Positions 30,207 to 42,927 of a stretch of DNA of 42,927 bases are shown piece after piece. The position numbers and the translations under genes were made by a program. Origin of the DNA: Oscillospiraceae bacterium (lineage in GTDB: Bacteria > Bacillota > Clostridia > Oscillospirales > Ruminococcaceae); assembly GCA_018110825.1 (NCBI GenBank), contig JAGBCL010000028.1, positions 1 through 42,927 of the forward strand, in the 5' to 3' direction. Each line of letters opens with the position of its first letter. Within the stretch, counting starts at the first letter, position 1. Below the pieces are notes generated by a model. It was not told the origin of the DNA. It saw only the letters and a list, made by a program, of their open reading frames with translations, and searched no databases.

Positions 30207-31208
30207 ATGGCTTTATTTGAATCTTATGAGAGAAGAGAAAAGCAGATTCTTGCAGTTCTCGCTCAGTACGGCATTAACTCCATCGAAGAGTGTGCTGAAA
30301 TTTGTAAGGCAAAGGGCTTTGACCCATATAAGATTACAGAAGGCATTCAGCCAATCTGTTTCGAAAACGCTAAGTGGGCTTATACAGTAGGTTGTGCAAT
30401 CGCTATCAAGAAGAACTGCACAAGAGCTGCTGACGCTGCTGCTGCAATCGGTGAAGGTCTCCAGGCTTTCTGTATCCCTGGTTCTGTTGCTGACCAGAGA
30501 AAGGTTGGTCTTGGTCACGGTAACCTTGGTAAGATGCTCCTCGAAGACGAAACAGAATGTTTCGCATTCCTCGCAGGTCACGAATCCTTCGCAGCTGCAG
30601 AAGGTGCTATCGGTATCGCTGAAAAGGCTAATAAGGTTCGTAAGAATCCTCTCCGTGTTATCCTCAATGGTCTCGGTAAGGATGCTGCTCAGATTATCGC
30701 TCGTATCAACGGCTTCACATACGTTGAAACAGAGATGGATTACTATACAGGCGAAGTTAAGGAAGTATTCCGTAAGGCTTACTCCACAGGTCTTCGTTCC
30801 AAGGTTAACTGCTACGGCGCTAACGACGTAACAGAAGGCGTTGCTATTATGTGGAAGGAAGGCGTTGACGTTTCCATCACAGGTAACTCCACAAATCCAA
30901 CACGTTTCCAGCACCCAGTTGCAGGTACATATAAGAAGGAATGTAACGAAAAGGGTAAGAAGTACTTCTCCGTTGCTTCCGGCGGTGGTACAGGCCGTAC
31001 ACTCCACCCAGATAACATGGCTGCAGGTCCTGCTTCCTATGGTATGACAGATACAATGGGACGTATGCACTCTGACGCTCAGTTTGCAGGTTCTTCTTCC
31101 GTTCCTGCTCACGTTGAAATGATGGGCCTTATCGGTATGGGTAACAACCCAATGGTTGGTGCTACTGTTGCTTGTGCTGTTGCGGTTGAGGAAGCTATGA
31201 AGGCTTAA
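30207..31208 (+). CDS. GGGtGRT family protein
   Basis: The 333-aa protein contains the family-naming motif GGGTGRTLHPDN near residue 262 and the conserved tail MGRMHSDAQFAGSSSVPAHVEM. It begins MALFESYERREKQILAVLAQYGI. Several conserved cysteines (e.g. in EECAEICKAKG and YTVGCAIAIKKNC) could bind metal. Its function is unknown; its fixed pairing with the NifU-like gene upstream and very biased codon use point to an abundant metabolic enzyme or cofactor-linked protein. It has aaggagg before the ATG. Confidence 0.88.
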   Translation: MALFESYERREKQILAVLAQYGINSIEECAEICKAKGFDPYKITEGIQPICFENAKWAYTVGCAIAIKKNCTRAADAAAAIGEGLQAFCIPGSVADQRKVGLGHGNLGKMLLEDETECFAFLAGHESFAAAEGAIGIAEKANKVRKNPLRVILNGLGKDAAQIIARINGFTYVETEMDYYTGEVKEVFRKAYSTGLRSKVNCYGANDVTEGVAIMWKEGVDVSITGNSTNPTRFQHPVAGTYKKECNEKGKKYFSVASGGGTGRTLHPDNMAAGPASYGMTDTMGRMHSDAQFAGSSSVPAHVEMMGLIGMGNNPMVGATVACAVAVEEAMKA

Positions 31209-31273
31209 TCAAACGTAAATATAACGGTTTTACGGCATTTAACGGCTGTTGAAACCACCCCGATTTTACCTTG

Positions 31274-31317
31274 TAATACACAAGTAGTACACAGGTAATA
31301 CACAGTCACAATACACA
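31274..31317. repeat. Four ~11-bp phased repeats beside the integrase
   Basis: Units starting at 31274, 31285, 31296 and 31307 read TAATACACAAG, TAGTACACAGG, TAATACACAGT and CACAATACACA. The one-helical-turn spacing next to the 3' end of a tyrosine integrase suggests arm-type integrase or excisionase binding sites at the element end. Confidence 0.5.
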
Positions 31318-31367
31318 AATGCAAGTCTGTGCAGAGAGTAAAACCTCTGTAAGACTTGCATTTTTTG
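31317..31367. terminator. Hairpin between GGGtGRT and integrase genes
   Basis: A 12-bp outer stem (aaatgcaagtct / agacttgcattt) encloses an inner AGAG..CTCT pairing and is followed on the + strand by a T run, so it should terminate the GGGtGRT transcript and, with its A-rich left side, also the convergent integrase. Confidence 0.8.
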
Positions 31368-32414
31368 TTATTTGATCTTCTCAATTTCAGTGCGGAGATT
31401 TTCAAGGGTTCTGTGAGTGTAAACACGTTCTGTTACGTCACCGATTTCGTGACCGACAATAAGCTTTAAACAGTATTCGTTCATCTCAGCTTCTTTTGCA
31501 AGCGTTATAAAAGTGTGACGTGCTTCGTGAGGTGTATGCTTCATTTTAAGACGAGCCATAATCTCCTTAAAACGTGTGTAGTACATACCGTAATCAAGTT
31601 CGGAGCCGTTCTTGCCGTTATCATCATAGAAAAGCTGTGTTCTTGACGGATCGTACCACTTTTCAACAAGGTGACGCACCTTTGAATGAATAGGAACGCA
31701 CCTGTTCTTGCCTGCTGCCGTTTTCATACCGCCTGTCATTGTACCGTTTTCAAGGTCAATATTCGCAGTTTTAAGAGTAGCAAGCTCCTGAGGACGCCAG
31801 CCTGAATAGATACCAATAAGAATAATATCCACAAAAGGAATGTCAATGTTATCCCAGAGCAGCTGTATTTCTTCTTCGGAAAATGGTTTACGCTGACGTG
31901 TTGATTCTTCCTTTTTGACTCTGTTGCAGAGTGCAGCATAATCCTTGTCCACAATTTCGTGCTTGAGTGAATAGCGGAACATAAGATTATACAGCGACTT
32001 CATACGGTTCTTGGTGTCAGCACCGACATTTGCATCCCTTATAGTGCCTTCAAGATGTGAAGCACGGATATCCTTCATTCTCATATCCCACAGCGGTTTA
32101 CTGTGATTGTAAGCTGACTTCCAGGTTCTCTGTGCAGACGGTACGATTGTTTCAAAATGCTCAACAGACCATCTTGCGTAAACTTCGCTGAAAGTTATCG
32201 TGTTAGTATGTATATCATAAGGATTTTCGTTGTAATTTGCAAGAGCGATCAACGCTTCCTGTTTTGTAGCGTAATAGCCGATTGTAATGTACTGCTGTTT
32301 GACTTTTCCATTCTGCTCATCAAGAAGCCAGCCGGAAGTTTTACGCACTCTCCAAGGGTGACGTCTTTTTCCGGGAAGCTTATGAACAGAGCCGTAACTG
32401 TTTGGCTGTTTCAA
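31368..32414 (-). CDS. int: Tyrosine recombinase (integrase)
   Basis: The 348-aa phage-type integrase has an N-terminal AP2-like arm-binding domain (GSVHKLPGKRRHPWRVRKTSG), a core-binding helical domain (about 70-170) and a complete catalytic set: Arg207 in SGWRPQEL, Lys231, His296 and Arg299 in HEARHTF, His322 in VGHEIG, and Tyr332 in RVYTHRT. It should insert and excise the mobile element by site-specific recombination. It sits at the left end of the element with its 3' end towards phased repeats, the standard place next to an attachment site. The relaxase stop is 17 bp upstream, so int is likely transcribed with mob. Confidence 0.94.
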   Translation of the reverse strand: MKQPNSYGSVHKLPGKRRHPWRVRKTSGWLLDEQNGKVKQQYITIGYYATKQEALIALANYNENPYDIHTNTITFSEVYARWSVEHFETIVPSAQRTWKSAYNHSKPLWDMRMKDIRASHLEGTIRDANVGADTKNRMKSLYNLMFRYSLKHEIVDKDYAALCNRVKKEESTRQRKPFSEEEIQLLWDNIDIPFVDIILIGIYSGWRPQELATLKTANIDLENGTMTGGMKTAAGKNRCVPIHSKVRHLVEKWYDPSRTQLFYDDNGKNGSELDYGMYYTRFKEIMARLKMKHTPHEARHTFITLAKEAEMNEYCLKLIVGHEIGDVTERVYTHRTLENLRTEIEKIK

Positions 32415-32431
32415 TTTTATCTACCTCCTGA

Positions 32432-34117
32432 TCAACGTACATATCTGCTTTGTTCAGACTTCTGCTGTTCTTTGAAATGGATCGCTCTCTGGCTGATTTC
32501 AGCATCAAGTTCTGTACCATTATAAAGATCATCATACTCCCCTCGTTTATCTAAACAGTTGATGGCAAAAAGAGAAATGCTTTCTGCCAGAGCCTTTGCC
32601 CAGCCGCTTAAACCAGCTTTATATTTACTTGAATAAACAAGCTCATTTACAGCATAAGCAACTTTCTTGAATTCTTCTTTAACTGTGGAAAGCTGTTCAC
32701 GCAGAGAAGCAATAACCGATTTATCTTCTTCCTGTTCTTTAAGCTTATCCTTGAAATTATCAATAAGCATTTTCAGCATATCGGGGAGTTTAATACTGGT
32801 TTTCTGCTTGTAACTAAGATGAAGCTCTTTTGCGATACAATTCTTGATCTGATAGTTTTCATCAACAATTTCACGGCAGCGGTCAAGGGTATCTATTTCA
32901 TCGTCAGAATAAGCAATGCCAACTGCCTGTCGTATTTCAGAAAGTGTATGTGAACATTCAGCGTATTCACGGTCAAGCTTTCTGAACTTATCATTTAATT
33001 CAGAGTACCGATGGTTAAGTTCAACCTGCTCATTGTAGCGTGCAGTTGCCAAACGCATTTGATTTTCAGCTTTATTCATAAGAAACACTGATTGTCTGTT
33101 GGTTTTTTCAATCTCACTCTCACGTCTGTCCAGGCTTGCACTGCGTTCAATAGAGAGCTGTGTGCTTTCAGCTTCTTTAGCAGCAATTTCCGCTTCACGT
33201 TCATCAAGAGCATTTTCACGATCAGAAATATCTTTTAGCTTATTCTGATTATCAAGCGTCTGAACAGCAACAGCTTTTTTCTGTGTTTCAAGCTGTTGAA
33301 GTTCTTCGGGGGTAACGGTGATATTATGAGAAAGAAGCTGCTTCTTACCGACAACTGTATTTTCATCTGCTGCAAGTTCCATTTCACGCAAAGGCTTTAA
33401 TTCTTCTGTAAGCCGTTTCTTTTCTTCCTGAATATCCTTGTATTCATCAACGGTAAAATTGTAGCCTCTTGATTTCAGCGGTGCGGCAATTTCAAGACTG
33501 TGTGATTTACATATCTCAGTAAAAACGGCTCGCTCGTGTTCACGCCATTTGGTAGCAGCATTAACTCCTGTGTATCCCATTTCTTCAAGAGCCTTTGCCA
33601 TAGCATTTCTTGTATCAAGACCTTTTGAATAATGTCCGACAGGAATGTAATTGATGTGCAGGTGCGGAGTAGCTTCATCCATATGAATGACAGCATTGAA
33701 AACGTAAAAGTTTGAATTGTTCTTAATGTAATGTTCCGCATATTCGATAAGGCACTGTTTTGCGATTTCTGCGTCAGGAGTGCCACAGCCTGTATCGTGC
33801 ATATCACCGACCTGAACTAAATCTTCATAAAAACTTTTCTGCTTATTGTTAGCAACGAGGGTATAATCGCAAACCTTATGATTAAACAGGTGAAAGAAAT
33901 AGTCAGTATCAATACGACGGCATTTTCTTGTCTGCTTGTCATTGTAACGTTCAACGGATTTACTGAACAGATCATCATAGGCTTTCGCCAAAGGGATACG
34001 GACAATCTCAACATTTTGCGGAGTGCGTGAGATGTCAACATTTTTAGCAAAGAAGCATCTGTTGTTATGTGACAAACTGCCTTTACCGACAACGTGGGAA
34101 ATTCTTTTTTCTTTCAA
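32432..34117 (-). CDS. mob: MobV-family relaxase
   Basis: The 561-aa Mob/Pre protein has the MobV motifs: HNNR (residues 17-20) and HMDEATPHLH (145-154) with the metal-binding histidines, in a ~200-aa N-terminal nickase domain. The rest is a long charged coiled coil (LEEMGYTG..., many EAEIAAKEAE-type heptads). It would nick the element at oriT and pilot the DNA strand during mobilization by a helper conjugative element; no type IV secretion genes are visible, so the element is mobilizable rather than self-transmissible. Tn4451 TnpZ is a known MobV homologue. Confidence 0.93.
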   Translation of the reverse strand: MKEKRISHVVGKGSLSHNNRCFFAKNVDISRTPQNVEIVRIPLAKAYDDLFSKSVERYNDKQTRKCRRIDTDYFFHLFNHKVCDYTLVANNKQKSFYEDLVQVGDMHDTGCGTPDAEIAKQCLIEYAEHYIKNNSNFYVFNAVIHMDEATPHLHINYIPVGHYSKGLDTRNAMAKALEEMGYTGVNAATKWREHERAVFTEICKSHSLEIAAPLKSRGYNFTVDEYKDIQEEKKRLTEELKPLREMELAADENTVVGKKQLLSHNITVTPEELQQLETQKKAVAVQTLDNQNKLKDISDRENALDEREAEIAAKEAESTQLSIERSASLDRRESEIEKTNRQSVFLMNKAENQMRLATARYNEQVELNHRYSELNDKFRKLDREYAECSHTLSEIRQAVGIAYSDDEIDTLDRCREIVDENYQIKNCIAKELHLSYKQKTSIKLPDMLKMLIDNFKDKLKEQEEDKSVIASLREQLSTVKEEFKKVAYAVNELVYSSKYKAGLSGWAKALAESISLFAINCLDKRGEYDDLYNGTELDAEISQRAIHFKEQQKSEQSRYVR

Positions 34118-34140
34118 GGTGTAAACCTCCTTTCATTTTG

Positions 34141-34335
34141 ATAAGCAAGGGATAGCTTGCATAGCTTTGTTACTTTCTCCGAAAGTAACCCCGAGGTACT
34201 ATTGGACACTCCGCAAGCTACATATCCAATAGTCCGGGGCTCTCCGAGGGGGATTTCGCTTTCTGCGGAAAGCGATAAGCTTCGCTGAAACTATACATCT
34301 ATTTCTGAAAACAAAATATACAGCGTATCCCTTGC
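34141..34335. other. Candidate oriT with nested inverted repeats
   Basis: Directly upstream of mob this 195-bp stretch is bounded by GCAAGGGATA (34145-34154) and its exact complement TATCCCTTGC (34326-34335). Inside lie three perfect inverted repeats: GTTACTTTC/GAAAGTAAC (34169-34189, 3-nt loop), ACTATTGGA/TCCAATAGT (34198-34233, extended by CCCCG/CGGGG) and TCGCTTTC/GAAAGCGA (34256-34275). MobV origins of transfer lie just upstream of their relaxase gene and carry such repeats. The nick site cannot be named. Confidence 0.6.
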
Positions 34336-34387
34336 CTGTACTTCCAGTATATCAAGCAAAAGCTTCTGAAAAAACTTCGATACGTTT

Positions 34388-34423
34388 AAACGCAAAAATA
34401 AACGCTGTAATTTTGCGTTTTTT
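34388..34423. terminator. Terminator-like hairpin between mob and the next gene
   Basis: AAACGCAAAA (34388-34397) pairs with TTTTGCGTTT (34411-34420) and is followed by further T bases on the + strand. It sits between the oriT candidate and the promoter of the next gene, insulating the divergent units. Confidence 0.6.
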
Positions 34424-34530
34424 CATCATACTATCACATTTGTTAGTGGAAATTAGCGTAACTTTATGGTATAATCAAAGACAGAATAAGTTATGCGTTT
34501 GTATAAGCGTTTGAAAAAGGACGGATAAAT

Positions 34531-35610
34531 ATGAAAAATTACACCCTTTACAGAGTGAATAGCCACATCAAAACCGTAGATTTTATAATCAACATTGCCG
34601 ATGAAGAACTGAACAGCGCAGAAGTATTTGCAAAATACATATCAACGCCTGTAACCTTTAGCTTTGACGAAATTTTGTTGCAACTGGAACAGTTTCGAAT
34701 CAGGTATGAGCGTTTGAAAGATTTCGCAGGAAAAACTATTGAATACATAACCAAGGGACAGGACGTTAATGTTGTGCTTACAAATGAGTATACGATGTTA
34801 TCAGAAAAGGAAAACAATTTCTTTGCGAAATATTACCTTGAAAAGCTATGGGAAATTTATACCGTAGGCAGAAAAAATCTTAATAAGATAACAGGATTTA
34901 TTACTAACGCTATGACTAACAGCGGTGAAGAAAAAGCCTACCGCAATCAGCTTAATAATATTGCCGCTGAAATGGAACAGCTGATTATTACGGATTGGTT
35001 TTACAATCATATTCCTGATACAAGTAATAGGGTTATACAAGAGAACATAGGATATGTTGTTTTACGTGGCAATGGTGTCAATGAGATGTACAGGGTAACA
35101 GAACTGTCGCTGCTGCCGTTTTTGTATGAGTACAGCTTTTGTATCAGCAGCATCGGTATGCAGGTTTATGAATGCAGTTATTGTCACAAACATTATTTGA
35201 GTGTCGGGAATAATGTCTGCTGCGGCGATGAAAAGTGCCTGTCACAGAAGAAAAAGGATATACGCAAGGGTAAGAAGGACGAGTTTTCAAACATAAAAAA
35301 AGGCTATTGCGGTTATGTTCGAGGATTGAAACATAAGCTCACAGAAGCCAAGAAAAGTAAATATGCTATTGATTTATTTACCGACGCACAGAACAAAGCT
35401 GAAAAGTACGTTTCCAATGCCATTGAGGAATACCGTGACAGCGGCAAACGTCCCGACGCTGATTTTGATGATGTAATCACTTCTGCCAAAAACGCTATGC
35501 GTAAGCTGACAAACAGGTTATACAAGATGTCCGATTCAGCAACAGAAGAAATTTACTGCAAGATGGTTGAGGGGGATGTTTTATTTGAGGTGGAGAGATT
35601 AATGATATAA
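34531..35610 (+). CDS. Zinc-ribbon-like mobile-element protein (DUF6076-like)
   Basis: This 359-aa protein is mostly helical with a cysteine cluster, Cys215-x2-Cys218 (YECSYCHKHYLSVGNN), Cys230-Cys231 and Cys236, followed by a very basic stretch (QKKKDIRKGKKDEFSNIKK). This arrangement suggests a zinc-ribbon DNA- or RNA-binding unit. The layout reminds me of DUF6076 proteins of Firmicute mobile elements, but that match is from memory and uncertain. A weak promoter (TATAAT at 34470-34475) lies ~55 bp upstream and an aaggacgg site precedes the ATG. Divergent from mob, it could be an element regulator or accessory protein. Function unknown. Confidence 0.5.
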   Translation: MKNYTLYRVNSHIKTVDFIINIADEELNSAEVFAKYISTPVTFSFDEILLQLEQFRIRYERLKDFAGKTIEYITKGQDVNVVLTNEYTMLSEKENNFFAKYYLEKLWEIYTVGRKNLNKITGFITNAMTNSGEEKAYRNQLNNIAAEMEQLIITDWFYNHIPDTSNRVIQENIGYVVLRGNGVNEMYRVTELSLLPFLYEYSFCISSIGMQVYECSYCHKHYLSVGNNVCCGDEKCLSQKKKDIRKGKKDEFSNIKKGYCGYVRGLKHKLTEAKKSKYAIDLFTDAQNKAEKYVSNAIEEYRDSGKRPDADFDDVITSAKNAMRKLTNRLYKMSDSATEEIYCKMVEGDVLFEVERLMI

Positions 35611-35636
35611 TATCATTATTTTGATGACGCAAATGC

Positions 35637-35659
35637 CAATTATTTGCTTTAAATAATTG
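35637..35659. promoter_or_regulatory. Inverted repeat overlapping the -35 box of the DUF2971 promoter
   Basis: CAATTATTT (35637-35645) and its exact complement AAATAATTG (35651-35659), 5 nt apart, overlap the -35 hexamer at 35657-35662. This is where a repressor would bind, so it is a candidate operator for the accessory cassette. Confidence 0.5.
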
Positions 35660-35685
35660 ATTTATTTGTCGAATTATGCTATAAT
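35657..35685 (+). promoter_or_regulatory. Promoter for the DUF2971/Mrr cassette
   Basis: TTGATT (35657-35662) and TATAAT (35680-35685) are spaced 17 bp, giving a start near 35692 and a ~60-nt leader before the DUF2971 ATG with its aaggaag site. Confidence 0.75.
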
Positions 35686-35750
35686 AGCAATAGGTGTTCT
35701 AAGTAAGCAAAATAAATAGTGAATATATAATACATTAAGGAAGTGCTTAT

Positions 35751-36719
35751 ATGGGTTCAAATATAGTTTATCATTATTGTAGTTTAGATACTTTCAATTT
35801 GATTATAAGCAACAAAACATTACGTGTTTCTGATATCAGAAAATCAAATGATTCAGAAGAACTTAAATGGATTTCTAATGGCATCATTGATAGTGTTATA
35901 AAATATGTGTTAAGTAATAATACTTTCTGTGAAAAATATCATATTGATAATAATAAAATTTCTTTTATTGAATCTCAATTACAGCGTGCCATCAATGCGG
36001 TTTTTGTTAATAATTCAAGAACTATGATTTCATTAGCTTGTTGTTTTTCAGAAGTCGGAGACTTATTAAGCCAGTGGCGTGGTTATGCTGATGATGGTAA
36101 TGGTATATCAATTGGTATTAACAAAAAAATATTAGAACAGCTTAATACGTACAAATTTGCCTATCAATTCTATAAAATTGAATATAGCAATAAAAAGCAA
36201 CAGCAATTTTTAAATAAGCATATTTCTGATATTGTAACTGCATATGCTCAAGCTAACTCAGATGAGATAACTGATAAAACATTTTCAGATTTTATAATGG
36301 ATTTAATATTAAGAATGAGCACTTTATTAAATGATGCTCCTGCTTTCAAAAACAAATGCTTTAGCGAAGAAAAAGAATGGAGAATATGCATAAAAACGTT
36401 TTTGTATAATATAATTAATGGCAGCAATTTCATGGAAAACACAAAAGAAGATATCGGTTATCCAGAAGAAGATTTTAATTATTCTGCACAACTTTCAAAT
36501 GGATTAATAAGATATCCAATATCTTTTTCCACAAGATGTAATAAACTGGTTCCGTATGTTGATTTGAATTTTGAAAATATAAAAAACAACTTCATCAAAA
36601 AAATAGTAATCGGACCTAAATGTGATGTTAGTGTTCTTGATATACAAATGCTTTTAGCATCCAAAGGATATGACTTTGATAAAATACCAATTATACATTC
36701 ATCTTGTACATACAGATAA
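35751..36719 (+). CDS. DUF2971 family protein
   Basis: The 322-aa protein has the DUF2971 pattern: an N-terminal VYHYCSLDTFNLIISNKTLRVS, NDSEELK, then MISLACCFSE--DLLSQWRGYADDGNGISIGI, and EEKEWRICI near the C-terminal third. The family occurs in mobile elements and defence islands; its biochemical activity is not established to my knowledge. First gene of the cassette; an Mrr-like endonuclease gene begins 30 bp after it. Codon use is very A/T-rich and unlike the flanking host genes. Confidence 0.78.
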   Translation: MGSNIVYHYCSLDTFNLIISNKTLRVSDIRKSNDSEELKWISNGIIDSVIKYVLSNNTFCEKYHIDNNKISFIESQLQRAINAVFVNNSRTMISLACCFSEVGDLLSQWRGYADDGNGISIGINKKILEQLNTYKFAYQFYKIEYSNKKQQQFLNKHISDIVTAYAQANSDEITDKTFSDFIMDLILRMSTLLNDAPAFKNKCFSEEKEWRICIKTFLYNIINGSNFMENTKEDIGYPEEDFNYSAQLSNGLIRYPISFSTRCNKLVPYVDLNFENIKNNFIKKIVIGPKCDVSVLDIQMLLASKGYDFDKIPIIHSSCTYR

Positions 36720-36749
36720 ATTTGTGTATATTTAAAGGAGAGTAAAACC

Positions 36750-37970
36750 ATGCTTGAAAATTACGATGATATCAATTCTATGAGTGGCGTAGAATTTGAA
36801 TTCCTTTGCAAAGAATTACTAGAAAAAATGGGATTTGAAACCGAAACAACCAAAGCAAGTGGTGATGGTGGAATCGACTTAATTGCTTATAATTATCAAC
36901 CAATATTATCAGGTAAATACATTATTCAGTGTAAGCGATATGTTGGCAGCGTAGGAGAGCCTGTTATTCGTGATTTATATGGTGTAATTACTTCTGAACG
37001 TGCAAACAAAGGAATACTTATGACAACTGGACACTTCACCAAAAGTGCTATTGAATTTGCAATGGGAAAGCCTATAGAATTGATTGATGGAAGTAAGCTA
37101 AATGAACTGTTATCACTCTATGAACTTGATAATATTAACACACTTGAATCTGATGAAGAAACATCAGATATAGAAAAAAGTCATTGTTGGATTATTAACT
37201 CACAACAATATATAAATTTAAAAGAAGCCATAAAAAAAGATCCTCTTGATTGGAATTGTTTACAGGAAATTATACATATATTAATGCAGGCTCTAACATC
37301 AAGTATCATTTTAAATAATTACATTCCAACCAAAAGTGAATATAATGAGATTATTGATGAATGTATGTTTTATTTATCAAGAATATCTATGTATGAATCA
37401 CCGTTATGTAAATATACTGTAACTTATTGTAAAAGTTTGCTTTGCTTATTGAAAGGTGATTTACAAGAATCATATAATTACGGCAAACAAACCATAGATA
37501 TACTATCACAATATCCTAAAAAAATATATAATGATGATGAAATTGTTACTATAACAGCTATTATTTACAATCAACTTCAATTATCGGTCATTTTAGATTA
37601 TAAATTAGAAGCACAAACTTTGTTGAAAAAGTGGCAATATATTTTTGATCTTAGAATAGCTGGATTAAAAAATAAAATAGAGGATGATTCACTAGATTGG
37701 GCAGACCCAGATGAAGATATAAATGACATTTTGGAATTTATGGAAGAAGAAAATTCTGAGGCAATTAAGGAATTAGATTTTTTGTCAAACCCATTAAATA
37801 TTTCAAATATATATATTGCTGAAAATAATTTGATTTTCTTCCACAAAGATTTACCTAAGCATTATATGTGTATAAATTTACTTGATGATATGAATATAAG
37901 TAAAGTTCCGTTTGAAATAGATAATAATAAGGTAGTGGGAATTAAAGGTTTTCCAAAATGGATGTTATAA
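36750..37970 (+). CDS. Mrr-like restriction endonuclease with helical C-terminus
   Basis: Residues 1-125 are an Mrr_cat PD-(D/E)xK nuclease domain: MSGVEFEFLCKELLEKMGFE, then SGDGGIDLIAY (Asp43) and QCKRY (Gln60-x-Lys62), the Mrr-type variant active site, with GILMTTGHFTKSAIEFA after it. The remaining ~280 residues are helical, with possible TPR-like pairs, and a short beta-rich end; I recognise no family. It probably cuts foreign or modified DNA. Unlike typical Mrr there is no obvious winged-helix modified-base reader at the N-terminus, so the C-terminal region may provide recognition or regulation. Confidence 0.8.
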   Translation: MLENYDDINSMSGVEFEFLCKELLEKMGFETETTKASGDGGIDLIAYNYQPILSGKYIIQCKRYVGSVGEPVIRDLYGVITSERANKGILMTTGHFTKSAIEFAMGKPIELIDGSKLNELLSLYELDNINTLESDEETSDIEKSHCWIINSQQYINLKEAIKKDPLDWNCLQEIIHILMQALTSSIILNNYIPTKSEYNEIIDECMFYLSRISMYESPLCKYTVTYCKSLLCLLKGDLQESYNYGKQTIDILSQYPKKIYNDDEIVTITAIIYNQLQLSVILDYKLEAQTLLKKWQYIFDLRIAGLKNKIEDDSLDWADPDEDINDILEFMEEENSEAIKELDFLSNPLNISNIYIAENNLIFFHKDLPKHYMCINLLDDMNISKVPFEIDNNKVVGIKGFPKWML

Positions 37971-38058
37971 ATGTTGATACTTAGGGAATATTGCATATAC
38001 TAAGTATAACAACAATTATTTATTGATTGTTGAAATCTTAACATTGTGAGGAATATAA

Positions 38059-38430
38059 ATGAGCAAAGAACAAGTTATGAAATCACAAGGATATGCTGTA
38101 GAGATTGAAATGATTTTACGCAACATATTTAAGTGTGACAGATTTGGCTTTGGTGGTCAGATAAACTCTGACACAATACGAAAGCACCCTTATTTATCAA
38201 TGACACAGGGATTGGCTTTTCTTTATGCTACCGCTGAAGAAAGTAAACGCAAACAGATAGATGAATTTATTGACAAATTCAGCTTTTATTCTGATATGAG
38301 CTTGGATGAACTACTTTCTTTCGATACAAATGAAAAAGTAATCGGATCTATTACCGTTGTACTTATAAAGAACAACGGTTTAGAGGAAGTGAACTATATT
38401 ATTTCTGCTTTTAGAGAGGTTATAAAATGA
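38059..38430 (+). CDS. Uncharacterised 123-aa cassette protein
   Basis: A soluble, mostly helical protein (MSKEQVMKSQGYAVEIEMIL...), with no domain I recognise. It has FGFGGQINSDTIRKHPYLS near the middle and a final amphipathic helix. gtgaggaat precedes the ATG. It sits 88 bp after the Mrr-like gene (with a CAACAAT/ATTGTTG inverted repeat in the gap) and ahead of the HEPN-like gene, so it may be a regulator, inhibitor or antitoxin of one of them; that is inference. Confidence 0.55.
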   Translation: MSKEQVMKSQGYAVEIEMILRNIFKCDRFGFGGQINSDTIRKHPYLSMTQGLAFLYATAEESKRKQIDEFIDKFSFYSDMSLDELLSFDTNEKVIGSITVVLIKNNGLEEVNYIISAFREVIK

Positions 38431-38435
38431 TTGTC

Positions 38436-38466
38436 ATCCCCTAATGCATACTATGCTTTAGGGGAT
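38436..38466 (+). terminator. Long hairpin between the 123-aa and HEPN-like genes
   Basis: ATCCCCTAA (38436-38444) pairs with TTAGGGGAT (38458-38466), with an inner GCATA/TATGC pairing. The T run expected of a strong terminator is weak (tatc), so it may attenuate or process the transcript rather than end it. Confidence 0.5.
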
Positions 38467-38497
38467 TATCAGAATTTAAAACAAAGGATTTAGACAT

Positions 38498-39736
38498 ATG
38501 TTTAATTTTTTATGGCCATCGGCTGATATGGAATTTAAAGAAATCAAAAACGAAGAAAATAAGGTAACTATTAAATGGACTCACAATTACTTTGAAGATT
38601 ATAAAAAACTATCATATGATTATTATGATTGCGGATATAACATTTTTAATGAAGTTATAAGTAGTGGTCACGATAATATTAAATCAGATATGTGGTTTTT
38701 AACGGGTATATTCCTTTTGCGGCAAAGTATAGAATTAGGATTAAAGGCATTAATTTGTAGAATATGTAAAAGAAATATAGATATACAAATTATATTTGAA
38801 TTATGTTGTCACGATTTATCTTTACTTTTTACGAAATATTTAGAATTTTCCGATGAATCTTTTTTAACAATACCAGAAAAAGATTGGCTTGAAAAATATT
38901 TGATTTCGCTTGAAATCGTTGATAAAAACTCTGATATGTTTAGATTTCCGTTTGAAGATGATTTTCTTGCTCAATATAGAGATAAGTTTTTAAATAATAT
39001 TGAGGTTGCAAATAATATATTACAAGCATTTGCATTAGTAAAGAAAAGCATTGAACTAGGAAACATTACAAAGGAAGATGAATTTGATGAAAGTCTAAAA
39101 CCACATTTCTTTGTTTTTACTACACATGGAATAGGAAATTGCTACCTTTGGCAAAGTATAACAGATGATGGTTTTCATGTAAAAGTAAAAGGGTATATAG
39201 ATGTTATTGATTATATTCACAAGAATACTAACATTAGTATTGAAACAAAACTTTATCCATTGTTATTTATGTTTAGAAACACAATAGAATTGTGTTTGAA
39301 GAGGTTGTTTTACAGTAAAGTAGATAATGGAGTTCCTTTAAATGTTTTTAGAGCTAAACGAAGAAGTCATCTTATAAAAAAAGACCTATGGAAAAATGTA
39401 AAACCCATAATAACGAACTACGCAAATCAGCAAGGAAATGATATGGATGTTATAAACATTATAGACCATCAGCTTGATGTTATCAGTTCACTTGACAAAA
39501 ATGGTGATAATTTCCGATATCCTACATCGTATAGTTTAGAATATCGAATAGATAATGTTGAATTGGATATAGAAAATATATATGAATATTTAAAAGCTAT
39601 TGTAAATTTTCTGGATTGTTGTGATGATATGCTAAAATCTATTTATGAATATCAAGCTGAAATGAGAGCCGAGTATGAAGCTGAAATGAGAGCTGAGTAT
39701 GAAGCGGAAATGCGTGCAGATATGGACTGGTATTAA
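38498..39736 (+). CDS. Tandem HEPN-like domain protein
   Basis: The 412-aa protein has two similar halves. The first (about 60-200) has FLLRQSIELGLKALICR, then CCHDLSLLF and FRFPF; the second (about 245-400) has LLFMFRNTIELCLKRLF, then RSHLIKKDLW and NFRYPTSYS. The xxxIELxLKxL helix followed by an HDL-type motif is typical of HEPN domains, which often act as RNases or toxin-like effectors. The canonical Rx4-6H motif is not clear, so catalytic activity is uncertain. The C-terminus ends in repeats of AEMRAEYE from a 24-bp DNA repeat. Last gene of the cassette. Confidence 0.55.
   Translation: MFNFLWPSADMEFKEIKNEENKVTIKWTHNYFEDYKKLSYDYYDCGYNIFNEVISSGHDNIKSDMWFLTGIFLLRQSIELGLKALICRICKRNIDIQIIFELCCHDLSLLFTKYLEFSDESFLTIPEKDWLEKYLISLEIVDKNSDMFRFPFEDDFLAQYRDKFLNNIEVANNILQAFALVKKSIELGNITKEDEFDESLKPHFFVFTTHGIGNCYLWQSITDDGFHVKVKGYIDVIDYIHKNTNISIETKLYPLLFMFRNTIELCLKRLFYSKVDNGVPLNVFRAKRRSHLIKKDLWKNVKPIITNYANQQGNDMDVINIIDHQLDVISSLDKNGDNFRYPTSYSLEYRIDNVELDIENIYEYLKAIVNFLDCCDDMLKSIYEYQAEMRAEYEAEMRAEYEAEMRADMDWY
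39656..39721 (+). repeat. 24-bp in-frame tandem repeat at the 3' end of the HEPN-like gene
   Basis: Two near-identical 24-bp units (39656-39679, 39680-39703) and a partial diverged third (39704-39721) encode repeats of AEMRAEYE. Such repeats can change copy number by slippage, altering the tail length. Confidence 0.8.
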
Positions 39737-39792
39737 AAAAGCAACTGCTTCGTCAGAAACAGCTGCCCTAATCATACAGGAGTATATCAAAT

Positions 39793-39846
39793 TTTGTCCG
39801 TTATTTGTCCGTTAAAGCTGCTAAAAAACACATAATAACGGACAAA
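39793..39846. repeat. 11-bp tandem and inverted repeats at the element's right side
   Basis: TTTGTCCGTTA occurs twice head to tail (39793-39803, 39804-39814) and once inverted (TAACGGACAAA, 39836-39846). The one-turn spacing is like the repeat group by the integrase at the left end, so these may be binding sites for the integrase. No T run follows, so it is not a terminator. Confidence 0.55.
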
Positions 39847-39899
39847 TACTCATTTGTGTAAGTTGCTGTAAAACGGCGTAACTACGGGCTTTGAGCCAG

Positions 39900-39925
39900 T
39901 TTGCAATAAGACGTGACATTGCAAA
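39900..39925. repeat. 8-bp inverted repeat beside the tRNA fragment
   Basis: TTTGCAAT (39900-39907) and ATTGCAAA (39918-39925) flank a 10-nt spacer, immediately left of the tRNA-Leu-like fragment. The symmetry and position suggest a recombinase core site (attachment site), but no second copy was found in the window. Confidence 0.4.
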
Positions 39926-39932
39926 AATAGAA

Positions 39933-39955
39933 TTCAAGTCCGGTTAGCGGCACCA
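39933..39955 (+). pseudogene. 3' fragment of a tRNA-Leu-like gene (probable att site)
   Basis: The 23 bp read TTCAAGTCCGG then TTAGCGGCACCA: a T-loop, the 3' half of the T-stem, acceptor strand, and CCA end of a Firmicute tRNA-Leu. The 5' half of the T-stem is absent, so the tRNA is not functional. Such a 3' fragment followed by a terminator is the usual scar at the far end of an element integrated in a tRNA gene. No intact tRNA-Leu is present in the window. Confidence 0.7.
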
Positions 39956-39962
39956 ATATCAA

Positions 39963-40006
39963 CCTCGCAAACCTCGTAGAATGGGCGTTTGCGAGGCTTG
40001 TTTTTT
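39963..40006 (+). terminator. Terminator after the tRNA-like fragment
   Basis: CCTCGCAAAC (39963-39972) pairs perfectly with GTTTGCGAGG (39987-39996), followed by CTTG and TTTTTT. It is probably the original terminator of the tRNA-Leu gene. Confidence 0.85.
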
Positions 40007-40109
40007 ATTTAAAAACAGTTTTGGTCATTATCTGGTCTATGCAAAACTGCCGTTTCAAGTACCATTGAAAAGTTAATTTTGTTTGTGTGGTTTTATGTAA
40101 CTTGCGCTG
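40007..40109. other. Non-coding stretch between tRNA terminator and integrase remnant
   Basis: No gene, promoter or hairpin that I could support. It is A/T-rich DNA between the tRNA-Leu-like scar and the decayed integrase. Confidence 0.4.
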
Positions 40110-40235
40110 TTATGCGGTTTCTCCTCTGTCACAGCAATTCAGAGGAAGTGCTTCGGCTACTGCGTTCATTGCAGCTGCCTGTGCTGACTGGAAGGTATGG
40201 GAATAAATCTGTAAAGTATTCAACATCTCAAAAGG
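40110..40235 (-). pseudogene. C-terminal remnant of a second tyrosine integrase
   Basis: The minus strand reads MLNTLQIYSHTFQSAQAAAM and NAVAEALPLN before a stop. This is the C-terminal end of a tyrosine recombinase, including the catalytic Tyr in LQIYSH. An in-frame TGA lies just upstream and the rest of the gene is missing. It lies near the tRNA-Leu-like fragment, the expected position for the integrase of an element inserted there. It is only ~40 codons, but the motif is distinctive. Confidence 0.65.
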
Positions 40236-40258
40236 TCACACAATACTAATATCTCTTC

Positions 40259-40280
40259 AAACCGCTTAATCAAGCGGTTT
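40259..40280. terminator. Terminator for the serine recombinase
   Basis: AAACCGCTT (40259-40267) and AAGCGGTTT (40272-40280) form a 9-bp stem with a short loop overlapping the last codons and stop of the recombinase. A T-rich tail on the + side and A-rich sequence on the other suggest action in both directions. Confidence 0.7.
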
Positions 40281-41939
40281 TTCAATTTTTGCCGTATCAA
40301 GCCTAAGCTTATTTAAAAGCGGCTTGTCTAACAGCTTGTAGTAAATATGAATATCTCTCGATCTGTCAGCGGAATATTCGTCAATCGTAACATACTCGAT
40401 TAATTCCAGAGCCATTTCTCTTGTAAGCTCCTGAACATCTGTATATTTCTTCAAGCGTCGGATAAATTCCTCAACATCATCCTTATCCTGTTTAACAGCA
40501 GACAGCTTTGCTTCAAGTTCCGATACTTCCTCGGACAATTCTTTCTGCTCCGCCTGATACTTTTCCAAAAGATTAACGCATACAGTCTCAGGTATCTTTC
40601 CAAGCACCTTATCCTCATAAATTGACGGTATCAGTTTGCGTAATTCTTCAAGACGATACATTCCATCCCTTAACCGCTTCTGTTCCATTTCTATCTGATG
40701 AGAATTTATTTGCTCCTTCTGTGCTAAAAACTGCTGACGTGCCTTTTCTTCATCTTCAACAACAAGTGTTGCAATCATACGAATATCTGTAAGAACAATA
40801 GCATTGATGTCCTTCATTTTAATATGATGGCTTGTGCAGTAAAATTTTCCGTATCTGCTGTATGCACCGCATTGATAATTGTGACGAAGATATTTTCTCG
40901 GCTTTTTCTTACTTCCTGTTGTGGTATTATTCCAGCCAAGCCGCATTTTCTCACCGCAGTCAGCACAGTACATTAAACCGCTTAACGGCATAATCTCGCC
41001 GTGCTTATCACGCTTGCCCTGACTTACTGAATTATCCATCTCTCTGCATTTGTCCCACATCTCCTGCGAAACAAGCGGCTCGTGGGTATTCTTTATCACA
41101 ACCATATCTTCCTCGTTTCGTTTAATCAGCTTGTGATTTTTGTGCGAAACCGTTGTGGTACGCATTTGCACAAGATGACCGAGATAGGTTGGATTCTGAA
41201 GCATTTTTCTTACTCTTTCCGCACACCACAGATGTGTAGTCTTGCGAGGATTTGGTTTCCCTTGCTTTGCGTAGAGATAATCCGACGGGGTAAGGATTTT
41301 TTCTTCATTGAGCATATCGGCAATATGTCTTGGACTGATTCCCTGCGAACGCATTTCAAACATTCTCCGTACAACACTTGCCGCAGGTTCATCGGGAACA
41401 GGCAGTCTGTTTTCATCGTTTCCTTTTACATAACCGTAAGGAGCGTTTGTTGCACGATATTTTCCTGCCTTGCAGTTTGCCTCGATAACCGCCTTTATTT
41501 TCTTAGAGGTGTTAGCGGCGTGCCATTCGTTAAAAACATTCATTATCGGCATCATATCCATAGCGGTGCTGTTGGCATTAAGCGTGTCAACATTATCGTT
41601 AAGAGCAATGAAACGAATGTTGTAAGTCGGAAAAATGTAATCTATGTATTGTCCGACCTGAATGTAGTTTCTGCCGAAACGGCTCAGGTCTTTAACAATG
41701 ATAAGGTTGATTTTTCCCATTTTGGCGTCATCAAGTAATCTTATAACAGCAGGTCTGTTAAAATCAGTTCCCGAATATCCGTCATCAACATAGGTGTCAA
41801 TAATGTTCCAACCCTGTTCGGCAACGTATTTTGTAAGGATAAGCTTCTGATTTTCGATTGAAAGGGATTCTCCCGCACGCATATCCTCCTGAGATAAACG
41901 AACATAAATCCCTGCATTATATGTGGTCTGCTTTGACAT
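40266..41939 (-). CDS. Large serine recombinase (Tn4451 TnpX-like)
   Basis: From the ATG with aaggag upstream, the 557-aa product begins MSKQTTYNAGIYVRLSQED, with catalytic Ser16. It contains the resolvase core (VKDLSRFGRNYIQVGQYIDYIFP), the recombinase domain (GKYRATNAPYGYVKG, RRMFEMRSQGISPRHIADMLN), a zinc ribbon (MYCADCGEKM, CGAYSRYGKFYC) and a coiled coil near 430-490. Such recombinases excise and insert Clostridia transposons through circular intermediates. An earlier in-frame ATG adds 12 residues without a ribosome site. With TnpW just upstream this is a second, Tn4451-like element distinct from the tyrosine-integrase element on its left. Confidence 0.93.
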   Translation of the reverse strand: MSKQTTYNAGIYVRLSQEDMRAGESLSIENQKLILTKYVAEQGWNIIDTYVDDGYSGTDFNRPAVIRLLDDAKMGKINLIIVKDLSRFGRNYIQVGQYIDYIFPTYNIRFIALNDNVDTLNANSTAMDMMPIMNVFNEWHAANTSKKIKAVIEANCKAGKYRATNAPYGYVKGNDENRLPVPDEPAASVVRRMFEMRSQGISPRHIADMLNEEKILTPSDYLYAKQGKPNPRKTTHLWCAERVRKMLQNPTYLGHLVQMRTTTVSHKNHKLIKRNEEDMVVIKNTHEPLVSQEMWDKCREMDNSVSQGKRDKHGEIMPLSGLMYCADCGEKMRLGWNNTTTGSKKKPRKYLRHNYQCGAYSRYGKFYCTSHHIKMKDINAIVLTDIRMIATLVVEDEEKARQQFLAQKEQINSHQIEMEQKRLRDGMYRLEELRKLIPSIYEDKVLGKIPETVCVNLLEKYQAEQKELSEEVSELEAKLSAVKQDKDDVEEFIRRLKKYTDVQELTREMALELIEYVTIDEYSADRSRDIHIYYKLLDKPLLNKLRLDTAKIEKPLD

Positions 41940-42035
41940 TTTAAAATAACTCCTTCCTGTTTTCAAAGCAGCCAAATTCGACAGTTACAGTATAACATAA
42001 TCTGCCAAATTTAGCAAGACTTTAAAGCGATAAAA

Positions 42036-42281
42036 TTACGCTGCTTTCTCAAGGATTTCATTCATAGCTTTGTGGAAAGCGATATTTCTGATAACCGTAT
42101 CAATATCCTTATTTCCTACAAAATGACTATGGACAATATATTTCTTTCCGTTAATCAGATACTCATTTACACTGACGGGACAATCCTTGTACTTTTCGTT
42201 AAGTTCGAACATTGTGGATTTTTTGTTTTTTGTTTCAGTCGTATCAGCTACGGCGGTATTCCTGCATACATTTCTAATCAT
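42036..42281 (-). CDS. TnpW-family transposon protein
   Basis: An 81-aa protein whose second half SVNEYLINGKKYIVHSHFVG and DIDTVIRNIAFHKAM matches the TnpW-type small proteins encoded with Clostridia serine-recombinase transposons. The ATG has aaggag 6 nt upstream; a later internal Met (MFELNEKYK) is an alternative start. Its role is unknown; co-transcription with the recombinase (96 bp gap) suggests a role in excision or regulation. Confidence 0.78.
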   Translation of the reverse strand: MIRNVCRNTAVADTTETKNKKSTMFELNEKYKDCPVSVNEYLINGKKYIVHSHFVGNKDIDTVIRNIAFHKAMNEILEKAA

Positions 42282-42306
42282 TTAACTCCTTTCTGCCTTG
42301 CGGCGG

Positions 42307-42335
42307 TTGACTTAATTTTTGTGTTTTGATATAAT
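42307..42335 (+). promoter_or_regulatory. Promoter for the histidine phosphatase gene
   Basis: TTGACT (42307-42312) and TATAAT (42330-42335) lie exactly 17 bp apart, ~30 bp before the ATG. It is divergent from tnpW. Confidence 0.85.
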
Positions 42336-42364
42336 AGAATAAAAATTATAAAGCGGAGGCAAGT

Positions 42365-42927
42365 ATGAAAACCATTATAACAATTCAACATACACAATCG
42401 GTTCATCACACTAATGGAATGATCGGCTCTTGGACGGATTGGGAATTATCCGAAGTAGGCGTTGAACAAGCCAGAAGAATTGGCGAAAAGCTAAAAAGCG
42501 AATTAGAAGACAGAAAATTTGTGATGTACTCTTCCGACTTATTGCGTGCAAAGCAAACCGCAGAAAATGTCGGTGAATATTTAGGCATTACCCCCGTATT
42601 AAGAAATGAACTCCGAGAAAGAAATTTGGGAAAGTGCTGTGGAAAATCTGTTCAATGGCTTCGTGAAAATCTCGAACAGCAGGAAAAGACAATAGATGAC
42701 AGATTATTTTCCGACGCTGAAAGCCGCAGAGATGAATGGAACAGACTAAAACCATTTTTTGATGAGATAATGTCCAACGATGAAGAAAATATAATCATTG
42801 TTTCTCACGGAGATTTATTGAGTGTATTCAACACTATGTTTTTAAATCTCGGAGTTGAGTCCATTAACAATTGTGAAATGTTCGGACTTTCAGGCGGAGT
42901 GTCCTATATGTTTGAAAACAATGAGGG
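42365..42927 (+). CDS. Histidine phosphatase family protein (3' partial)
   Basis: The frame is open to the window edge (187 codons seen). It starts MKTIITIQHTQSVHHTNGMI with gcggaggc upstream. Histidine phosphatase features are visible: the first catalytic His (His9, in IQHTQS in place of the usual RHG), SSDLLRAKQTAE, RERNLG and the second catalytic IVSHGD. The RHG Arg is replaced by Gln, which in this branch may change phosphate handling. It could be a phosphoglycerate mutase-like phosphatase. It lies at the right edge of the serine-recombinase region, so it may be host flank or cargo. Confidence 0.82.
   Translation, partial: MKTIITIQHTQSVHHTNGMIGSWTDWELSEVGVEQARRIGEKLKSELEDRKFVMYSSDLLRAKQTAENVGEYLGITPVLRNELRERNLGKCCGKSVQWLRENLEQQEKTIDDRLFSDAESRRDEWNRLKPFFDEIMSNDEENIIIVSHGDLLSVFNTMFLNLGVESINNCEMFGLSGGVSYMFENNE

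Follow-up and report, generated by a model that had tools for sequence, protein, structure and literature searches.

A DUF2971, Mrr_cat and tandem HEPN-like gene cargo in an Oscillospiraceae mobilizable element: probably a small defence island rather than one four-gene system

Integrative and mobilizable elements carry variable cargo, and defence islands are known. Here we describe the cargo of such an element in an Oscillospiraceae bacterium (GenBank assembly GCA_018110825.1, contig JAGBCL010000028.1), in which four A/T-rich genes encode, in this order, a DUF2971 protein, an Mrr_cat nuclease, a protein of 123 amino acids (123-aa protein) and a tandem HEPN-like protein. The stretch of DNA that was analysed, here called the window, is the complete contig of 42,927 bases; the genome assembly comprises 3,116,958 bases in 124 contigs. 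An original prediction, made from the letters of the window, had proposed that the four genes form one system. Our data favor a different reading, which we consider quite likely to be correct: that the genes are a small defence island carried as cargo, and not one four-part machine.

The closest described systems resemble single genes of this locus. For EcoKMrr, an N-terminal winged helix ahead of the nuclease is described in PMC12707154. The Mrr protein of the window shares an Mrr_cat domain with D-QxK residues with EcoKMrr and with type IV restriction (PADLOC models mREase_IV and PDC-S02), but its nuclease is N-terminal, beginning at residue 8, and is followed by a region of 276 residues for which no relative was found. 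As no N-terminal modification-sensing domain was found ahead of the nuclease in the window protein, it is not a canonical Mrr. The DUF2971 protein aligns with full-length relatives in PF11185, with conserved residues in common, but its match to the PADLOC model PDC-S31 is weak (E = 0.0013).

The tandem HEPN-like protein is closest to HEPN-T (PF05168) and AbiV proteins, for which an alternative site pattern (Ex3[KR], with a His before an Arg-bearing segment) is described in PMC3710099. Both halves of the window protein have this pattern, as a pattern of sequence: Ex3K at residues 79–83 and 264–268, a later conserved His (105 and 291), and a later Arg within an F-R-(F/Y)-P run (149 in the N-terminal half). 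The protein differs from HEPN-T and AbiV in having two copies per chain, no conserved Rx4-6H motif and no Pfam match. A second comparison is with Tha, a tail-activated HEPN RNase that S. aureus prophages encode against phages. It is likewise a HEPN-type defence gene on mobile DNA, and its abortive RNase action, as set out in PMC11087260, is the model for what we propose for the window protein. According to the same source, Tha-1 is 301 amino acids long, with a single HEPN domain at the C terminus that bears an Rx4H motif; the window protein instead consists of two halves, and Rx4-6H is not conserved in it.

Co-occurrence and neighbours of the cargo genes in other genomes

The four open reading frames (ORFs) are co-oriented on the forward strand, as had been predicted, at 35751–36719 (DUF2971 protein, 322 amino acids), 36750–37970 (Mrr_cat nuclease, 406 amino acids), 38059–38430 (123-aa protein) and 38498–39736 (tandem HEPN-like protein, 412 amino acids). 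Profile searches were made over 176 loci, including five stretches of the window itself that scored as expected. The genomes sampled comprised 297 of the family, 394 of the order and 391 of the class, not each gene being sought in each, together with pattern-limited collection scans. Among these loci the four-gene order, recurrence of which the original prediction had given as its own check, was not found again. No place outside the window held three or four of the cargo genes (0 of 21 HEPN-like places and 0 of 79 DUF2971 places), and nowhere else were the DUF2971 and HEPN-like genes found together, or the 123-aa protein with any other cargo gene. A broader Mrr profile gave three loose two-gene coincidences (L077, considered below, L106 and L133). 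In L106, an Mrr-like stretch lies 3.2 kb from the DUF2971 gene on the opposite strand, and in L133 the Mrr-like match accompanying DUF2971 is borderline (E = 0.0098).

These counts depend on how places were delimited and how much flanking sequence was available. Upstream sequence exceeded 3 kb, enough for the order seen in the window, in 18 of the 21 HEPN-like places and was shorter in L063, L064 and L075; many DUF2971 loci had flanks of 1.5 kb, enough for a neighbouring gene and too short for a whole island. The 98 DUF2971-positive loci formed 76 groups at 99.5% identity and 79 places, three near-identical pairs of viral contigs being kept separate. L044, L045 and L103, weak matches in the first search, failed the profile test and are not among the 79.

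The HEPN-like and DUF2971 families keep varied company. The HEPN-like protein is present in two of the 297 family genomes, its own included (1 of 296 others), in three plasmid records and, in a pattern-limited scan, in 18 loci from a collection of 84,980 species; as the second family genome duplicates one collection locus, the distinct places number 21. One HEPN-like locus (L070) is from Ruminococcus callidus ATCC 27760. Phage records gave no match to the HEPN-like protein at E up to 1e-5, and scans of viral contigs with each cargo protein as a single query returned no relative for any of the four. L069 has a GajA-like gene (AAA_15 with OLD-like TOPRIM) and GajB (1052.2 bits over 2–649 of 649), 91 bp after which a frameshifted HEPN-like gene begins. 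Elsewhere a UG24-type DRT together with HD-CE lies ~1 kb upstream of the HEPN-like gene (L068, 1269.7 bits), a PDC-M01A/PtuA-like ATPase ~3 kb upstream (L006, 613.6 bits), PDC-S56 ~0.4 kb before a broken copy (L073, 791.7 bits) and an AbiH-like gene directly 3′ (L064, 55.4 bits). Further neighbours include type I restriction–modification (RM) genes (L004) and TIR genes (L005), as annotated, a C5 methylase (L065), an HD, dGTPase-like gene (L066), and caspase and Vsr/Dcm genes (L067). PADLOC matches of more than 200 bits were obtained in 7 of the 17 places scanned (L006, L065, L066, L067, L068, L069 and L073), with neighbours chosen by eye and L004, L063, L070 and L078 outside the scan; as background, ten chromosomal proteins of the window gave no PADLOC match above 172.1 bits.

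In five genomes (L065, L066, L067, L071 and L072) a gene for an RlmD-like RNA methyltransferase, an assignment checked with Pfam in two of the five places, is upstream of the HEPN-like gene, and this neighbourhood looks like an integration hotspot. At least 4 of the 18 genome loci (L069, L072, L073 and L074) have a HEPN-like copy that is frameshifted, split or interrupted by an insertion, which would fit the turnover of defence genes. We also noted a related gene common to three loci, just 3′ of the HEPN-like gene (L062:9197–10564, L072:9195–9656 and L073:8918–10171); for its members in L062 and L073, Pfam gave nothing at E up to 1e-4.

DUF2971 occurs in 9 of the 297 family genomes and 25 of the 394 order genomes, both counts including its own genome, in four plasmid records, two of them from one strain, and in 48 viral contigs. 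In one genome (L052:6317–16520, G137) the gene is part of a type III RM set, where it is flanked by the methylase gene and the nuclease gene with gaps of ~4 and ~8 bp, and a DrmD-like SNF2 helicase is encoded upstream of the set. This packing indicates that DUF2971 can share an operon with nucleases, and in L052 it is a possible part of a restriction operon. The top-scoring relative (L106:6218–8104, G573; 40% identity) is followed after ~57 bp by a CAP12/Pycsar-type TIR protein, which also has a weak receiver-domain match, and in L107 DUF2971 is followed by a PD-Lambda-3_A-like protein (36.7 bits).

The cargo genes, their signals and their products

The original prediction had also relied on a base composition shared by all four genes, and this stands for three of them. 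The DUF2971, Mrr and HEPN-like genes have GC contents of 0.271, 0.282 and 0.277 and third-position GC contents (GC3) of 0.195, 0.194 and 0.196, respectively; the 123-aa gene departs from them with a GC of 0.333 and a GC3 of 0.298. The predicted leading promoter and overlapping inverted repeat are both present, with modest statistical standing. A promoter-like site on the forward strand (TTGATT-17-TATAAT, 35657–35685, with TG ahead of the second hexamer) is overlapped in its first hexamer by the repeat CAATTATTT-GCTTT-AAATAATTG (35637–35659), which has perfect arms of 9 bp. When the gap that holds the repeat was shuffled 1000 times, arms of equal length occurred in 37 cases, and promoter-like sites on both strands of 34400–40300 numbered 43, against 36.2 (standard deviation 6.8) in shuffles, which is no clear excess. 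A second promoter-like site (TTGATA-16-TATACT, 37974–38001, forward strand) lies ahead of the 123-aa gene. Between the 123-aa and HEPN-like genes a strong RNA hairpin (38436–38466, forward strand) was found, terminator- or processing-like and without a clear T run; the fold of 38425–38497 has an energy of −20.2 kcal/mol (z −4.06), equalled in 0 of 200 shuffles, and the hairpin is not among the entries of a terminator scan. A single transcript of the four genes is disfavoured because of this hairpin and the second promoter-like site.

The two halves of the HEPN-like protein, both helical, are the product of an internal duplication: compared with each other by hhalign they gave a probability of 97.7 and E = 1.8e-12. 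This part of the prediction of a tandem HEPN-like protein holds well, but HEPN membership has weaker backing. Against 11 PF05168 members from related genomes the N-terminal half aligned weakly, in the right register (E = 0.002, probability 13.9), and the C-terminal half, at E = 0.037 (probability 1.4), did no better than unrelated control alignments (0.033–0.52). We therefore name the protein HEPN-like and do not file it as a HEPN member. Pfam listed nothing for it at E up to 1, PADLOC gave no match, NCBIfam none above cut-off and PHROGs nothing better than E = 0.045; a search for AbiV (PF18728) gave zero matches, controls included, and is uninformative. In 12 aligned proteins E79, K83, H105 and R149 of the first half and E264, K268, H291 and R340 of the second are invariant. 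The Rx4-6H motif at the end of helix 3 is not conserved among the 12; its sole match in the window protein is R285-x5-H291, of which R285 is not conserved. On these patterns of sequence, the protein probably works like an alternative-site HEPN effector. The alignment used for modelling took 11 of the 18 genome loci, leaving out the broken copies (L069, L072, L073 and L074) and partial ones (L071, L075 and L078). The model is mainly helical (pLDDT 86.3, pTM 0.87). Foldseek returned no PDB match at E ≤ 0.001 and the BFVD search none at that threshold, with a HEPN-domain protein at rank 44 (TM 0.56 by target length, E 5.3); the root-mean-square deviation in these and the other fold searches was near 20 in most rows, which is uninformative, and for this reason no fold claim rests on them. 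The family, undescribed, unmatched in four libraries and occurring beside known defence systems, is the first lead to come from this locus.

The Mrr_cat call was confirmed (PF04471, residues 8–121, E = 1.1e-34, 119.4 bits), and the catalytic residues E15, D43 and Q60-x-K62 are all present. PADLOC matches, to PDC-S02, type IV nuclease (mREase_IV) and ZorD models, all lie over the catalytic domain; PHROGs gave families of unknown function, restriction endonuclease families and one named cold shock protein, and NCBIfam nothing above cut-off. After the Mrr_cat domain there is no Pfam family above cut-off, and the C-terminal ~276 amino acids matched their own genome only among the 391 class genomes. 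Mrr_cat-like proteins occur in 51 of the 297 family genomes (own included), and among the matches listed none except that of the window extends past residue 200 of 406; 207 plasmid records match the protein, none over 80% of its length. Judged from its sequence, the Mrr protein may be an effector that carries a sensor in its C-terminal region. This nuclease, in which the catalytic domain comes first, in contrast to EcoKMrr, is the second lead.

The assignment of DUF2971 was likewise upheld (PF11185, E = 7.7e-14, 53.2 bits against a curated cut-off of 22). The protein matched a PHROGs family of unknown function (E = 4.9e-23) and nothing above cut-off in NCBIfam. Residues H8-Y9, N33-D34, L106, Q108-W109-R110, Y112 and E207-x-E209 are invariant or nearly so among its relatives. 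The alignment for modelling used 37 of the 48 viral loci; L121, L130, L135 and L159 were left out as lacking a complete ORF of the usual length, L123, L131, L158, L162, L164 and L166 as at least 95% identical to a kept row or its group, and L167 as a supposed copy, a status not confirmed at 95%. The AlphaFold2 model is of fair confidence (pLDDT 84.3) and had no PDB match at E ≤ 0.001 in the fold search. Sequence searches of solved structures gave nothing better than E = 0.015 with the DUF2971 or HEPN-like alignments or with the Mrr protein. An ADP-ribosyltransferase reading of DUF2971, suggested by its H-Y and E-x-E residues, was not adopted because it has no support from a structure match. 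DUF2971 is a mobile gene that occurs both within restriction genes and in viral contigs, and this offers a lead on a family with scant open literature.

The 123-aa protein belongs to a small uncharacterised family with shared CDR-x-G...G...P residues in an alignment of three. Pfam, PADLOC and NCBIfam all lacked a match to it at E up to 1; PHROGs gave one (E = 0.045) and plasmids zero. Relatives were found in three other genomes among the 297, one of them a fragment. The relatives examined are two complete small proteins (L059:10246–10554 and L060:482–832) and a remnant, 76% identical, in a genome of the same genus (L050:1554–1706, G238). One complete relative shares its contig with a resolvase-like gene and a Mob_Pre relaxase, and the other adjoins a GMP-synthase-like gene; the resolvase and the GMP synthase were named by eye.

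A defence island and its alternatives

We favor a small defence island because no three or four of the genes recur together, the DUF2971 and HEPN-like relatives have unlike partners, the 123-aa gene differs in composition and has its relatives elsewhere, and a hairpin separates genes three and four. A defence role of the cargo genes is plausible, and the domain calls and the defence flavour of the original prediction stand. In such an island between two and four modules would have gathered independently in the cargo bay, most likely directed against phages or rival mobile elements. The HEPN-like protein would act alone, its two halves probably packing as an internal dimer, and would stay idle until infection, then halting growth by binding or cleaving RNA (abortive infection). 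The Mrr protein probably acts as a DNA nuclease, its C-terminal part sensing or binding a trigger, and the DUF2971 protein is probably a defence accessory or a solo effector.

Several observations weigh against this island. An Mrr-like gene, with no PADLOC match, lies ~0.94 kb before the HEPN-like gene in L077, so that a nuclease–HEPN neighbourhood recurs in 1 of 21 places. The near-identical GC and GC3 of the DUF2971, Mrr and HEPN-like genes would fit joint arrival, and the gap between the DUF2971 and Mrr genes is only 30 bp. Many DUF2971 relatives adjoin housekeeping genes and others stand alone. Of the 17 places scanned for neighbours of the HEPN-like gene, eight (L062, L071, L072, L074, L075, L076, L077 and L079) had nothing above 25 bits, and the share with defence matches, the neighbours having been picked by eye, is not an unbiased rate. 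Finally, we have seen no phage phenotype reported for a gene of this set.

The short gap bears on an alternative in which DUF2971 and Mrr form a two-gene system and the other two genes, 123-aa and HEPN-like, merely travel alongside as separate passengers, which we regard as unlikely, though far from negligible. The DUF2971 protein may be made together with the Mrr protein because its gene is so closely ahead; a purine-rich, ribosome-binding-like stretch precedes the Mrr start, the two genes are equal in GC3, and in L052 DUF2971 is packed among type III RM genes. An Mrr_cat gene adjoins DUF2971 in none of the 79 distinct places, L106 and L133 being loose cases, which argues against a pair. The pair is kept in consideration since no full-length relative of the Mrr protein was found in the family and class genomes.

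It is rather improbable, in our view, that the genes have no part in defence and serve the maintenance or regulation of the element, or are neutral cargo. The phenotype and housekeeping observations above would suit this, as would the weak HEPN membership and the finding that none of the four proteins matched a PADLOC system model end to end. Against it are the catalytic residues kept by Mrr_cat, the recurrent defence-gene company of the HEPN-like family and of some DUF2971 genes, and the patchy presence of the HEPN-like gene among the other family genomes.

We are similarly doubtful of a bolder form of the island, in which the tandem HEPN-like proteins would make up a new and widespread Bacillota family of abortive-infection proteins that act alone. 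The two halves of each would dimerize within the chain and provide two alternative (Glu/Lys-His-Arg) sites for RNA cleavage; the family would serve as a second line after restriction, Gabija, DRT or Septu and, in the element described here, would back a new two-gene DUF2971–Mrr module that cuts DNA.

By far the least probable is the single anti-phage system, in which DUF2971 and the small protein would sense or regulate, Mrr cut DNA and the HEPN-like protein cut RNA: gene order, strand, the leading promoter-like site with its inverted repeat and the similar composition of three genes speak for it, but the set was in no other locus examined (the sampling being incomplete), DUF2971 and HEPN-like relatives have other partners, and the hairpin before gene four, the promoter-like site before gene three and the deviating composition of gene three all stand against it. 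We rejected it on the lack of co-occurrence in the loci examined and the unlike partners elsewhere, which removes a proposal that could have misdirected bench work. The statement that no known system has this composition agrees with the titles and abstract openings among the literature matches listed, in which the gene set is undescribed.

The mobilizable element and its flanks

The small defence island that we favor occupies the cargo position of a mobilizable element, as had been proposed: to its left, both on the reverse strand, are a tyrosine integrase (Phage_integrase, 31368–32414; PF00589, E = 6.6e-15) and a MobV-type relaxase (Mob_Pre, 32432–34117; PF01076, E = 1.5e-07, above cut-off; NCBIfam MobV, E = 7.1e-08, below cut-off). 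An ORF of 359 amino acids (34531–35610, forward strand, GC 0.379) precedes the cargo; neither Pfam nor NCBIfam assigns it to a family above cut-off, and PADLOC gave none. The integrase, the relaxase and the A/T-rich cargo genes liken the locus to integrative mobilizable elements, but its right end was not located in 31100–42927, the contig ending at 42927, right of the cargo and a serine recombinase. The left end is probably between 31208 and 31368. No clear attachment repeats were found among direct repeats across 31100–42927 or by comparison with four genomes of the same genus. DNA similarity searches with 34100–40200 gave zero matches to plasmids and a single match of 68 bases to phages, in an unannotated record.

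The large serine recombinase (40266–41975, reverse strand; Resolvase, Recombinase, zinc ribbon and DUF4368 domain matches) lies 3′ of the cargo in an element that also has a tyrosine integrase, and for this reason two elements may be nested at the locus. TACACA-type words are repeated at 31270–31330, in the stretch that separates the integrase gene from the chromosome gene, and similar words occur downstream of the same chromosome gene in a genome of the same genus (L175:410–460).

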